The notes beneath the pieces are model-generated. The model made no database searches, was not told where the DNA came from, and was given only the letters and a program-made list of their open reading frames with translations. 42,577 bases of DNA from Chloroflexota bacterium (GTDB lineage Bacteria > Chloroflexota > UBA6077 > FW602-bin22 > JAMCYS01): positions 1 through 42,577 of the forward strand of contig JAMCYS010000064.1 of assembly GCA_023473795.1 (NCBI GenBank), given 5' to 3'. The translations under genes and the position numbers were made by a program. Positions 23,934-33,747 of this stretch are shown one piece after another; positions within the stretch are counted from its first letter, which is position 1, and each line of letters begins with the position of its first letter.

Positions 23934-25437
23934 TGACTCTCCCACCACCGCCCAGCAGCTGGGCAGCCTCGTCAAGTCCGCGCGCGACATAATGCGCAAG
24001 GACAAGGGGCTGAACGGCGACCTCGACCGGCTGCCCGTGCTCACCTGGGTCATGTTCCTCAAGTTCCTGGACGACCTGGAGCAACTGCGCGAGACCGAAG
24101 CCTTCCTCGCCGGCCGGCGCTTCCGCCCCGCCGTCGAGCCGCCCTACCGCTGGCGCGATTGGGCCGCCGACGAGAAGGGCATCAGCGGCGACGACCTGCT
24201 CGCCTTCGTCAACAACGACGAGGCGCCCCGCCCCGACGGCAGCCGCGGCCCCGGCCTCTTCGCCTACCTGCGCTCCCTGCAAGGAGAGAACGGCGGCGAC
24301 CGCCGCGACGTCGTCGCCACCGTCTTTCGCGGCACCGCCAACCGCATGCTCAACGGCTACCTGCTGCGCGACGTCATCAATAAGGTCAACGGCATTCACT
24401 TCACCTCCTCGGAGGAGATTCACACCCTCGGCCACCTCTACGAGTCGCTGCTCAAGGAGATGCGCGACGCCGCCAGCGATTCGGGCGAGTTCTACACCCC
24501 CCGCCCGTTGGTGCGCTTCATGGTTGAGGTGACCGATCCCCGCCTGGGCGAGGTCGTGCTCGACCCCGCCTGCGGCACGGGCGGCTTTCTGGTGGAGGCT
24601 TTCCGCCACCTGGAGGCGCAGTGCCGCACGGTGGAGGATCGCCAGTTGCTGCAAGGCGAGAGCATCCGCGGCGACGAGGCCAAGTCGCTGCCTTACTTGC
24701 TGTGCCAGATGAACCTGCTGCTGCACGGCCTGGAGTACCCCCGCATCGACTCCGGCAATAGCCTGCGCTTTCGCCTCAGCGAGCTGGGCGACGCCGACCG
24801 GGTCGACGTGGTGCTGACCAACCCGCCCTTCGGCGGCGAGGAGGAGCGGGGCATCCGCGACAACTTCCCCGAGGACAAACAGACCTCCGAAACGGCGCTG
24901 CTCTTCCTGCAGCTGATCATGCGCCGCCTGCGGCGGGCGCCCCGGCCCGGCCGGGCGGCGGTGGTCGTGCCCAACGGCACGCTGTTCGGCGACGGCGTTT
25001 GCGCCCGCGTCAAGGAGGAGCTGCTGCGCGAGTTCAATCTGCACACCATCGTCCGCCTGCCCAACGGCGTCTTCGCCCCCTACACCAGCATCCCCACCAA
25101 CCTGCTCTTCTTCGACCGCTCCGGACCCACGCAGGACGTCTGGTTCTACGAGCAGCCGCTGCCGGCGGGGCGCAAGCAGTACACCAAGACCCAGCCTCTG
25201 CAATACGAGGAGTTTGCGGACTGCCTGGCCTGGTGGCGGGAGCGGCGAGAGGGCGAGCGCGCCTGGCGCGTCCCCGCCGCCCAGCTGCTGGCCAACGGCT
25301 GCAACCTGGACGTGAAGAACCCTGGGACCCCGCAAGACGAGGTCGAGCTGCCACCTGAGCAGCTGGTCAAACAGATTGCTGAGAAAGAGCGGAGAATCCT
25401 GGTTGTTCTTCTGGAAATCGAGGACCTACTTAGTTGA
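23911..25437 (+). CDS. hsdM: Type I DNA N6-adenine methyltransferase M subunit (HsdM)
   Basis: 508 residues, ATG 23911 with AGGAGG at 23894-23899 (11-base spacing, inside the previous gene). An N-terminal helical HsdM_N domain precedes the methyltransferase domain with SAM motif I D-P-A-C-G-T-G-G-F (from Asp218) and catalytic N-P-P-F (304-307). With HsdS it methylates adenine at the recognition site and with HsdR forms the restriction complex. Its stop overlaps the hsdS TTG start (TTGA). Its last 127 bases belong to the 681-bp duplicated unit, so a second copy of its 3' end lies downstream. Confidence 0.95.
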   Translation: MPRVAKNSDSPTTAQQLGSLVKSARDIMRKDKGLNGDLDRLPVLTWVMFLKFLDDLEQLRETEAFLAGRRFRPAVEPPYRWRDWAADEKGISGDDLLAFVNNDEAPRPDGSRGPGLFAYLRSLQGENGGDRRDVVATVFRGTANRMLNGYLLRDVINKVNGIHFTSSEEIHTLGHLYESLLKEMRDAASDSGEFYTPRPLVRFMVEVTDPRLGEVVLDPACGTGGFLVEAFRHLEAQCRTVEDRQLLQGESIRGDEAKSLPYLLCQMNLLLHGLEYPRIDSGNSLRFRLSELGDADRVDVVLTNPPFGGEEERGIRDNFPEDKQTSETALLFLQLIMRRLRRAPRPGRAAVVVPNGTLFGDGVCARVKEELLREFNLHTIVRLPNGVFAPYTSIPTNLLFFDRSGPTQDVWFYEQPLPAGRKQYTKTQPLQYEEFADCLAWWRERREGERAWRVPAAQLLANGCNLDVKNPGTPQDEVELPPEQLVKQIAEKERRILVVLLEIEDLLS

Positions 25438-26039
25438 GCGCCGTGACTTCACTTGCATGGCCGATGATACCCCTCGGGGAAGTTGTAAGGCAACGCCGGG
25501 AGTTCATCACCATTGATGACCTAGCCTCCTACAAGCGCTGTCGCGTACAGCTTCGCGCGCAAGGGATTGTCCTGCGTGACACAGTGCCAGGTGTGGACAT
25601 AAAGACTAAGCAACAGCAAACCTGTCGCCCTGGCGATCTGCTGGTCGCGGAGATCGATGCCAAGCACGGTGGTGTGGGGATCGTTCCCGCCGAACTTGAC
25701 GGGGCCATAGTCAGCAGCCACTACTTCTTGTTTGAGGTCGATGATCAGAAGCTGGACCAGCGCTTTCTTGGCTACTACCTTCACACCCCTGCCTTCCTAG
25801 ATCAGATACAGGCGCAAGGCAGCACCAACTATGCAGCTATCCGGCCGGAGCAGGTACTAGGCTACCGTATCCCCCTCCCTCCCCTACCCGAGCAGCGGCG
25901 ACTGGTGGCGCGGATCGAGGCCCTGGCGGGGAAGGTGGACGAGGCGAAGAGGTTGCGGGCGGAGGCTGCCGGTCAGCTGCGGGACCTCAAACGTGAAGAA
26001 CCCTGGGACCCCGCAAGACGAGGTCGAGCTGCCACCTGA
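25434..26039 (+). CDS. Half-size HsdS specificity subunit created by tandem duplication
   Basis: 201 residues from TTG 25434. Residues 1-186 are identical to the first half of the complete HsdS at 26115: the first target-recognition domain plus the P-L-P-E-Q-R-R-L-V central conserved helix. At 25992 the duplication junction switches the frame into a copy of the hsdM 3' end read out of frame, adding 15 unrelated residues before a stop. Single-TRD HsdS halves are known in other type I systems to dimerise and give a palindromic recognition site, so this product could be active; it could equally be a by-product or an assembly artefact. Confidence 0.75.
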   Translation: MSAVTSLAWPMIPLGEVVRQRREFITIDDLASYKRCRVQLRAQGIVLRDTVPGVDIKTKQQQTCRPGDLLVAEIDAKHGGVGIVPAELDGAIVSSHYFLFEVDDQKLDQRFLGYYLHTPAFLDQIQAQGSTNYAAIRPEQVLGYRIPLPPLPEQRRLVARIEALAGKVDEAKRLRAEAAGQLRDLKREEPWDPARRGRAAT

Positions 26040-26118
26040 GCAGCTGGTCAAACAGATTGCTGAGAAAGAGCGGAGAATCCTGGTTGTTCTTCTGGAAATC
26101 GAGGACCTACTTAGTTGA
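25992..26118 (+). pseudogene. Duplicated 3' fragment of hsdM
   Basis: This is the copy of the final 42 codons (stop included) of hsdM carried by the tandem duplication. It has no start codon of its own and is partly read in another frame as the tail of the half-size HsdS. It does reproduce the TTGA overlap and upstream sequence used to start the complete hsdS at 26115. Confidence 0.9.
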
Positions 26119-27308
26119 GCGCCGTGACTTCACTTGCATGGCCGATGATACCCCTCGGGGAAGTTGTAAGGCAACGCCGGGAGTTCATCACCATTGATGA
26201 CCTAGCCTCCTACAAGCGCTGTCGCGTACAGCTTCGCGCGCAAGGGATTGTCCTGCGTGACACAGTGCCAGGTGTGGACATAAAGACTAAGCAACAGCAA
26301 ACCTGTCGCCCTGGCGATCTGCTGGTCGCGGAGATCGATGCCAAGCACGGTGGTGTGGGGATCGTTCCCGCCGAACTTGACGGGGCCATAGTCAGCAGCC
26401 ACTACTTCTTGTTTGAGGTCGATGATCAGAAGCTGGACCAGCGCTTTCTTGGCTACTACCTTCACACCCCTGCCTTCCTAGATCAGATACAGGCGCAAGG
26501 CAGCACCAACTATGCAGCTATCCGGCCGGAGCAGGTACTAGGCTACCGTATCCCCCTCCCTCCCCTACCCGAGCAGCGGCGACTGGTGGCGCGGATCGAG
26601 GCCCTGGCGGGGAAGGTGGACGAGGCGAAGAGGTTGCGGGCGGAGGCTGCCGGTCAGCTGCGGGACCTCAAAGCAAGGGCATTGACGCAGGCCTACCTGG
26701 GTTATAGGGATCGATATGGGGCAAGGTCCATTGAGAGCTTAGCGGAGAGCGTGACTGATGGCGACCACATAACCCCACCTTTCCTGGGGGAGGGTGTCAA
26801 GTTCATCTTCGTCGGCAACGTCTCTTCGGGAATACTGCACTTCAAGGGCTGCAAATATGTTACACATGAGCACTACGCATCCTTGGCCTCCCAGCGCCGG
26901 CCCCGGCCTGGTGACGTTCTTTACAGCTCCGTCGGCGCTACACTTGGCGTGCCGGCCGTAGTCGACAGCACGGAGGAGTTCTGTTTCCAGCGGCACATTG
27001 CCATCGTTAGACCAAGGGCTGAGTGTCTTACGCCCAGGTTCCTGTGGTATATGCTTCGCTCTGAGTTCATTTATCGTCTGGCCCGCGCTGCGGCTACAGG
27101 TTCGGCCCAGCCCACGGTGCCGCTGCGGGCGATCAGGGAGTTTCCCATACCTTACCCGCCCATCGAGGCCCAGGTCCAGATCGTGGGTCAGCTGGATTTG
27201 CTGCTATCGCGGCTGGACGAGGCAGGAACGGAACAGATCGAAACGGAGGCTAGCCTGGTTGCCCTCCTGCCCGCCATCCTCGACAAGGCCTTTCGGGGAG
27301 AGCTGTAG
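26115..27308 (+). CDS. hsdS: Type I restriction specificity subunit S (HsdS), complete
   Basis: 397 residues from TTG 26115. Two target-recognition domains (~1-150 and ~200-345) are each followed by a conserved helical region: P-L-P-E-Q-R-R-L-V-A-R-I-E-A-L after the first and Y-P-P-I-E-A-Q-V-Q-I-V-G-Q-L-D after the second. The C-terminus K-A-F-R-G-E-L is characteristic. The TRDs decide the bipartite DNA target of both methylation and restriction. GC bias at third positions is lower within the TRDs than in hsdM, as usual for exchanged specificity domains. The first 558 bases are duplicated upstream. Confidence 0.94.
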   Translation: MSAVTSLAWPMIPLGEVVRQRREFITIDDLASYKRCRVQLRAQGIVLRDTVPGVDIKTKQQQTCRPGDLLVAEIDAKHGGVGIVPAELDGAIVSSHYFLFEVDDQKLDQRFLGYYLHTPAFLDQIQAQGSTNYAAIRPEQVLGYRIPLPPLPEQRRLVARIEALAGKVDEAKRLRAEAAGQLRDLKARALTQAYLGYRDRYGARSIESLAESVTDGDHITPPFLGEGVKFIFVGNVSSGILHFKGCKYVTHEHYASLASQRRPRPGDVLYSSVGATLGVPAVVDSTEEFCFQRHIAIVRPRAECLTPRFLWYMLRSEFIYRLARAAATGSAQPTVPLRAIREFPIPYPPIEAQVQIVGQLDLLLSRLDEAGTEQIETEASLVALLPAILDKAFRGEL

Positions 27309-32919: not shown

Positions 32920-33747
32920 ATGGGGCAACATGACTTGTGGGGGAGAACTCGACTAGCGCTATGCCTGGCTGCCGGACTGGTTGCGGCGCTCGTGGGCGCC
33001 TGCGCGGCGCCGCCGGCCGACACCTCGTCTCGTCAGCTCGCCGAGCTGCAACAGAGGCTGGCGGCGCAGGAGACGCGCGTGGCAGGCCTGCAGAGCCAGA
33101 ACGCGGCCTTGCAGACGGCTGTGGCCCGGTTGAGCCTAGCCCCGACCCCCACGGCGGTGGCGCCGCTGGCAGCCCTGCCGCCAGCGGCGACCGCGACGGC
33201 GTTGCCGCCCCCCGTGCCGGGGCTGGCGGTCAGCGGGGCCACGAAGGGCAGCCCTGAGGCGAAGGTGACGCTGGTCGAGTACAAGGACTTCCTTTGAATA
33301 TACTGCGCGCGGCATGCCGTGAGCACCGCCCGCCAGATAGACAAGGACTACGTCGCCACCGGCAAAGTGAGGGTGGTCATCAAGAACCGCGCGGGATTAG
33401 GGGCGGAGTCTCAGCCGGCCGCCGAGGCGGCGCTTTGCGCGGGCGACCAGGGGAAGTACTGGGAATTCAGCGACAAACTGTCCGAGGCGCTGATGGCCGG
33501 CAATCGAGCCGGTTTCAACAAAGACAGCTACAAGGCCCTGGCCGGCGAGCTAGGCCTGAACGCCGCTGCCTTCGGGCAGTGCGTGGATGGGGGCAAGTAC
33601 GCGCGGCAAGTGAAGGCCGAGACCGACGAGAGCACCCGGCTGGGCATCACGAGCACGCCCACGTTCCTGGTCAACGGCACCAAAATAATCGGCGCCCAGC
33701 CCTACCAGACCTTCCAGGTCGCCATCGAGGCCGAGCTGGGCAAATAG
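32920..33747 (+). CDS. DsbA-like thioredoxin-fold lipoprotein with in-frame TGA (candidate selenoprotein, UxxC)
   Basis: 275 codons from ATG 32920 to the stop at 33745, interrupted only by TGA at 33295-33297 in the same frame. The N-terminus has a hydrophobic signal and lipobox (V-G-A-C), then a coiled-coil-like Q/L-rich stretch and an A/P/T linker. The fold begins at [10 protein letters not shown], where DsbA-family proteins normally have D-F-x-C-P-Y-C. Here the codons read L-TGA-I-Y-C, so TGA replaces the first active-site Cys while the second (TGC 33304-33306) is kept. The cis-Pro loop [10 protein letters not shown] is intact downstream. Selenocysteine at this place would give a U-x-x-C redox centre; the alternative is a recent nonsense mutation or a sequence error. 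TGA serves as a stop in neighbouring genes. Confidence 0.7.
33304..33325 (+). promoter_or_regulatory. Possible bacterial SECIS-like stem-loop after the TGA
   Basis: Six bases after the TGA, 33304-33312 can pair with 33317-33325 (eight pairs including one G-U, one internal G/A mismatch), leaving a CATG loop, or GCATGC if the top pair opens. The apical loop is about 15 bases from the TGA, near the distance seen for bacterial SECIS elements, and a G at the loop start fits only in the open form. Any GC-rich sequence can fold, so this is weak support. Confidence 0.3.

Follow-up and report, generated by a model that had tools for sequence, protein, structure and literature searches.

An active-site TGA in an otherwise intact frame

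The window analysed here is a 42,577-nucleotide stretch (contig JAMCYS010000064.1) of a metagenome-assembled genome (MAG) of the Chloroflexota, which comprises 4.44 Mb in 170 contigs and is an estimated 95.9% complete. On its forward strand lies a gene whose single reading frame has a TGA as its sole interruption, at the position of the first active-site cysteine of a DsbA-like domain (Table 1). With the TGA read as selenocysteine (Sec, U), the frame yields a protein of 275 residues with one recoded codon, ending at a TAG, and the motif around that codon becomes D-F-L-U-I-Y-C, wherein U126 is followed by I-Y-C129. The sequence-only reading had described a frame broken solely by a TGA at the first Cys of a CxxC motif, with the second Cys, the cis-Pro loop and the remainder of the fold undamaged. 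Re-reading the interval agrees on each point: Cys129 and T246-P247 are present, and all columns that are invariant across a 10-member alignment of homologues are retained by the window protein in the frame that includes U126.

Table 1. Features of the candidate selenoprotein gene and its predicted product
Feature	Position	Strand	Evidence
Complete gene of the predicted selenoprotein, 275 aa + TAG	32920..33747	+	one open frame under TGA=U; PF13462 103.5 bits, PF01323 57.4 bits
Likely lipoprotein signal peptide with lipobox-like LVGAC end (Cys28)	32920..33003	+	sequence; predicted helix 6-26; NF041057 alignment from residue 20
Long single helix, likely coiled coil, residues 35-72	33022..33135	+	AlphaFold2 model
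Pro/Ala/Thr-rich flexible linker, residues 73-106	33136..33237	+	pLDDT <50 at residues 82-95
DsbA/thioredoxin-fold catalytic domain, residues 107-275	33238..33744	+	pLDDT about 97-98 over most of domain; Foldseek matches TsdA/DsbA of C. diphtheriae, BdbD
In-frame TGA, read as Sec (U126), first residue of U-I-Y-C	33295..33297	+	column TGA in 23, TGC/TGT in 104 homologous domains
Cys129 (TGC), second active-site cysteine	33304..33306	+	invariant in two homologue alignments
SECIS-like hairpin GCGCGCGGCATGCCGTGAGCACCGCCCGC, loop CGTGA about 25 nt past TGA	33305..33333	+	-11.9 kcal/mol
Cis-Pro loop Thr246-Pro247, opposite active site	33655..33660	+	P247 invariant in 10-member alignment, >90% in second one

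The coding signal continues across the TGA. The log-likelihood per codon is 0.096 before it and 0.305 after it, with the frame of the gene scoring highest on both sides, and the third-position GC content is 0.84 before and 0.86 after, against 0.82 in the neighboring genes. Codon usage is therefore that of a coding frame on either side of the TGA.

The AlphaFold2 model, built with 47 sequences (mean pLDDT 87), comprises an N-terminal hydrophobic helix, the helix spanning residues 35-72, a disordered Pro-rich linker and a DsbA-type domain, in which U126 is placed at the start of the active-site helix (127-134). The match to PF13462 (Thioredoxin_4) covers residues 108-270, and that to PF01323 (DSBA) likewise exceeds its cut-off. 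The protein thus combines all the hallmarks of the DsbA/Thioredoxin_4 superfamily, namely, a score above the curated cut-off, the DsbA fold, a C/U-x-x-C motif and the cis-Pro. The lipobox-like LVGAC and the match to a (seleno)lipoprotein model (see below) suggest that it is exported and lipid anchored. This architecture also bears on the notion that the TGA is a genuine stop separating two proteins, a 125-residue anchored N-terminal part and a 142-residue product restarted at the GTG at 33319. A mechanical open reading frame (33319-33747) does correspond to the latter; however, both U126 and C129 precede it, so that in the AlphaFold2 model the restart product is devoid of the first strands and the entire active site, and the homologues are single proteins. 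We accordingly regard this arrangement as most improbable.

TGA and cysteine codons alternate at one column

The pairing of Sec and Cys at a single alignment column is the standard test for selenoproteins. A single-protein search of genome contigs retrieved no relative of the window protein; an alignment-based search recovered relatives. In total, 127 distinct homologous domains were collected, of which 23 display TGA at the column in question (a biased frequency, since one of the two search patterns favored Cys forms) and the rest TGC or TGT. Across the approximately 150-residue core of these 127 domains, TGA was found nowhere else. Judging from these alignments, such confinement of TGA to one column is incompatible with random nonsense mutation. 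The sequence-only reading had proposed to examine homologues for TGA or Cys at this column and for accumulating stops; they possess either of the two at this one column, and no stops accumulate.

The closest relative found, with 50% identity across a gapless stretch of 167 aa, has TGA at this column as well. Homologues in several families of the window's class likewise contain one TGA within the match, always at the first active-site Cys, in motifs such as DFQUPAC, DFFUPGC, DFRUPYC and DFQUPGC. In one class genome the gene agrees in motif and score with that of the public record Chloroflexi bacterium UBA6077, so that the window would fall into the same class of Chloroflexota as that record. 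Among named records, TGA forms occur in Candidatus Aquidulcis, in Anaerolineae and Herpetosiphonaceae MAGs and in two Acidobacteriota MAGs. Most relatives have [U/C]-P-x-C, and the usual Pro is missing from the U-I-Y-C of the window protein.

In a quick tree computed with the active-site column masked, the Sec and Cys forms interleave, with 13 changes between them as opposed to 21.2 for shuffled labels; at least 6 of the 13 are forced by well-supported branches. The same tree pairs the window protein with a long-branch paralogue (L002), a placement that we distrust, leaving its exact position unsure. On balance, we lean toward viewing the Sec forms of this little-sampled class as an uncurated DsbA-like set that stands beside the NF041057 family and has repeatedly switched between Sec and Cys, the window protein being a member with an unusual UIYC motif. 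With both forms interleaved on one tree, the family is well suited to exploring what makes Sec take the place of Cys in an exported disulfide oxidoreductase. The finding introduces no new principle.

These comparisons weigh directly on the principal alternative to Sec, a recent mutation of TGC or TGT to TGA that would make the gene a young pseudogene. Such a change requires one base substitution; furthermore, the -I-Y- dipeptide deviates from the usual -P-x-, and its hairpin fails to reach significance by itself (see below). Against it stand the 22 other homologous domains with TGA at the same column and none elsewhere in their cores, the undamaged coding signal downstream of the TGA, and the presence of the Sec machinery and other selenoproteins in the genome. 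Taken together, these render a pseudogene very unlikely. A sequencing or assembly error at 33295-33297 might be entertained given that the window comes from a MAG fragmented into 170 contigs, yet an error would be very unlikely to strike precisely this column, at which 22 further homologous domains also have TGA, and its probability is minute.

Sec-decoding genes in the same genome and RNA structure past the codon

The genome harbors matches to selA (544 bits) and selB (363 bits), as well as a tRNA-Sec (71.9 bits) that ARAGORN also reports as tRNA-SeC with the anticodon tca (UCA). It also encodes FdhA (798 bits), an undisputed selenoprotein, whose CARIUHSPTV segment contains an in-frame TGA; the UHxP of FdhA is the classical textbook position of Sec. 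An in-frame TGA is also present in a second gene of the DSBA family, which is of the FrnE type (L004, C167:21849-22109), and its DFVUPFC motif marks it as a candidate for a further selenoprotein.

Canonical selD yielded no match over the cut-off in this 96% complete, 170-contig MAG. The search for the machinery suggested by the sequence-only reading was thus borne out for selA, selB and tRNA-Sec(UCA), but not for canonical selD. Among 29 genomes sampled from the class, selA is over the cut-off in 26, tRNA-Sec in 23 and selD in 22; in nearly all of these 22, selD itself contains an in-frame TGA. Given this prevalence of selD, the simplest reading is that its absence from the MAG probably reflects a gap in the assembly. 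Directly upstream of selB there is an AIR-synthase-like gene (L021, C107:6910-7665), which was considered as a substitute for SelD and rejected: its best matches are to models of the thiL/hypE type, and no selB lies within about 1.5 kb of its homologues in 16 other class genomes, many of which also possess canonical SelD.

The in-frame TGAs in at least three genes of this genome might also be accounted for by a genome-wide alternative code, wherein TGA stands for an amino acid such as Trp. This is contradicted by the window itself, in which TGA terminates 11 of the 30 main genes. Moreover, all the in-frame TGAs examined fall at Sec/Cys positions, and the genome has the tRNA-Sec with the UCA anticodon, so that such a code has a vanishingly small probability. 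The claim of the sequence-only reading that the TGA encodes Sec is, in contrast, strongly supported by selA, selB and tRNA-Sec, by the UHSP of FdhA and by the recurrence of TGA at the same column in 23 of the 127 domains.

The evidence from RNA structure is more graded. Taken alone, the hairpin of the window gene is not significant, as 14% of synonymous resamplings are equally stable; likewise, the comparison with random in-frame positions gives 22%. As a group, Sec forms are more structured than Cys homologues in the 45 bases past the codon (mean z of -1.28 versus -0.14; p=2e-4), and this persists among sequences with a GC content of at least 0.5 (p=0.002), with both p-values counting related sequences as independent. 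An Rfam scan around the TGA codon gave no SECIS-type match. Since the signal is significant for the group and the window gene's own hairpin is not, a SECIS in the window gene is plausible rather than demonstrated, with the hairpin as its candidate. Elsewhere in the order, three relatives from different genera (L030, L031, L032) have an identical hairpin, CGCCCTGGGTCCAGGGCG, whose loop is GGTC and which is a clear SECIS-like element.

Relationship to known families and proposed role

DsbA- and DsbG-like UxxC selenoproteins have already been catalogued (PMC1088965, PMC1794560, PMC13188914), which bears out the premise of the sequence-only reading that thioredoxin-fold selenoproteins with UxxC centers, including DsbA-like ones, are known. 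They include a DsbA-like family from the Sargasso Sea survey (COG2761, PF01323, UxxC; PMC13188914, PMC1088965) and the Rcas_1661-type family, which appears as a "DsbG-like protein" with UxxC (PMC13188914) and is also represented by the NCBIfam model NF041057. The kind is therefore already known, and the window gene is a further, unannotated and well-supported member.

The best NCBIfam match of the window protein is indeed to NF041057 (Rcas_1661 family thioredoxin-like (seleno)lipoprotein), with residues 20-271 aligned to positions 4-246 of the 247 in the model (158.2 bits, E=2.6e-46), although this score lies below the curated equivalog cut-off of 190 bits and hence outside formal membership. 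The model, named after a Roseiflexus protein, contains both Sec and Cys members from Roseiflexus and its relatives, and shares with the window protein the lipoprotein signal, the linker and the UxxC/CxxC domain. However, its members L098 (Roseiflexus) and L153 score 270 and 280 bits, respectively, as against 158 for the window protein, and the family has UTAC or CTAC where the latter has UIYC; the predicted coiled-coil stalk is a feature of the window protein. As judged from its score, it is a divergent relative of NF041057 that would work in the manner of that family.

Other comparisons are less close. With the Sargasso Sea type the window protein has in common the DsbA fold, Sec as the first residue of the redox motif and a PF01323 score above the cut-off, but its stronger match to PF13462 than to PF01323 sets it apart, and the COG2761/FrnE type is better fitted by L004, the other DSBA-family gene of the genome. 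The Candidatus Aquidulcis relative (L040), one of the Chloroflexota UxxC forms, is 50% identical to the window protein across 167 gap-free residues and carries its TGA at the same codon; its motif is UPYC, and its membrane-anchor N-terminus lacks the lipobox and coiled coil of the window protein. Among structures, the Cys-form DsbA/BdbD/TsdA proteins of C. diphtheriae and B. subtilis (PDB 7unn/4pwo, 3eu3) display the same fold over 171-172 columns (rmsd 2.0-2.1, 26-30% identity), with Cys where the window protein has Sec.

Hence, the gene very probably encodes an exported and likely lipid-anchored DsbA/BdbD-like oxidoreductase with Sec as the first catalytic residue of U-I-Y-C. The UGA at 33295-33297 would be decoded by tRNA-Sec(UCA), charged via SelA and delivered by SelB, with the hairpin just 3' of it presumably directing insertion. 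The helical stalk and Pro-rich linker probably hold the catalytic domain off the membrane. Outside the cell membrane, Sec126 would then be the selenolate that attacks disulfides or thiols of the substrate and exchanges with them, and Cys129 the thiol that resolves the mixed Se-S bond; these roles rest on the established chemistry of DsbA-fold enzymes and UxxC selenoproteins, and the enzyme may act as an oxidase or as a reductase. Because routine gene finders would report this gene and its relatives as split or truncated, extracytoplasmic Sec-based disulfide chemistry is probably under-counted in the Chloroflexota.

Two other loci in the window merit mention. On the reverse strand, 8 kb from the selenoprotein gene, lies a gene for a CcdA/DsbD-like membrane protein (PF13386; 40850-42203), adjoined by one for a DtxR-type regulator. 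It is conceivable that this protein donates electrons to extracytoplasmic thiol-disulfide proteins, though nothing ties it to the selenoprotein gene. Separately, the window contains a 300-nt direct repeat (25284-25583 and 25965-26264; 96% identity, spacing 681), in which the last part of a type I restriction hsdM-like gene and the first part of hsdS are present twice; the open reading frame at 25434-26039 is a shortened version of the hsdS-like one at 26115-27308 that retains its N-terminal part. Either a recombinational specificity cassette or an assembly artefact could underlie this arrangement.
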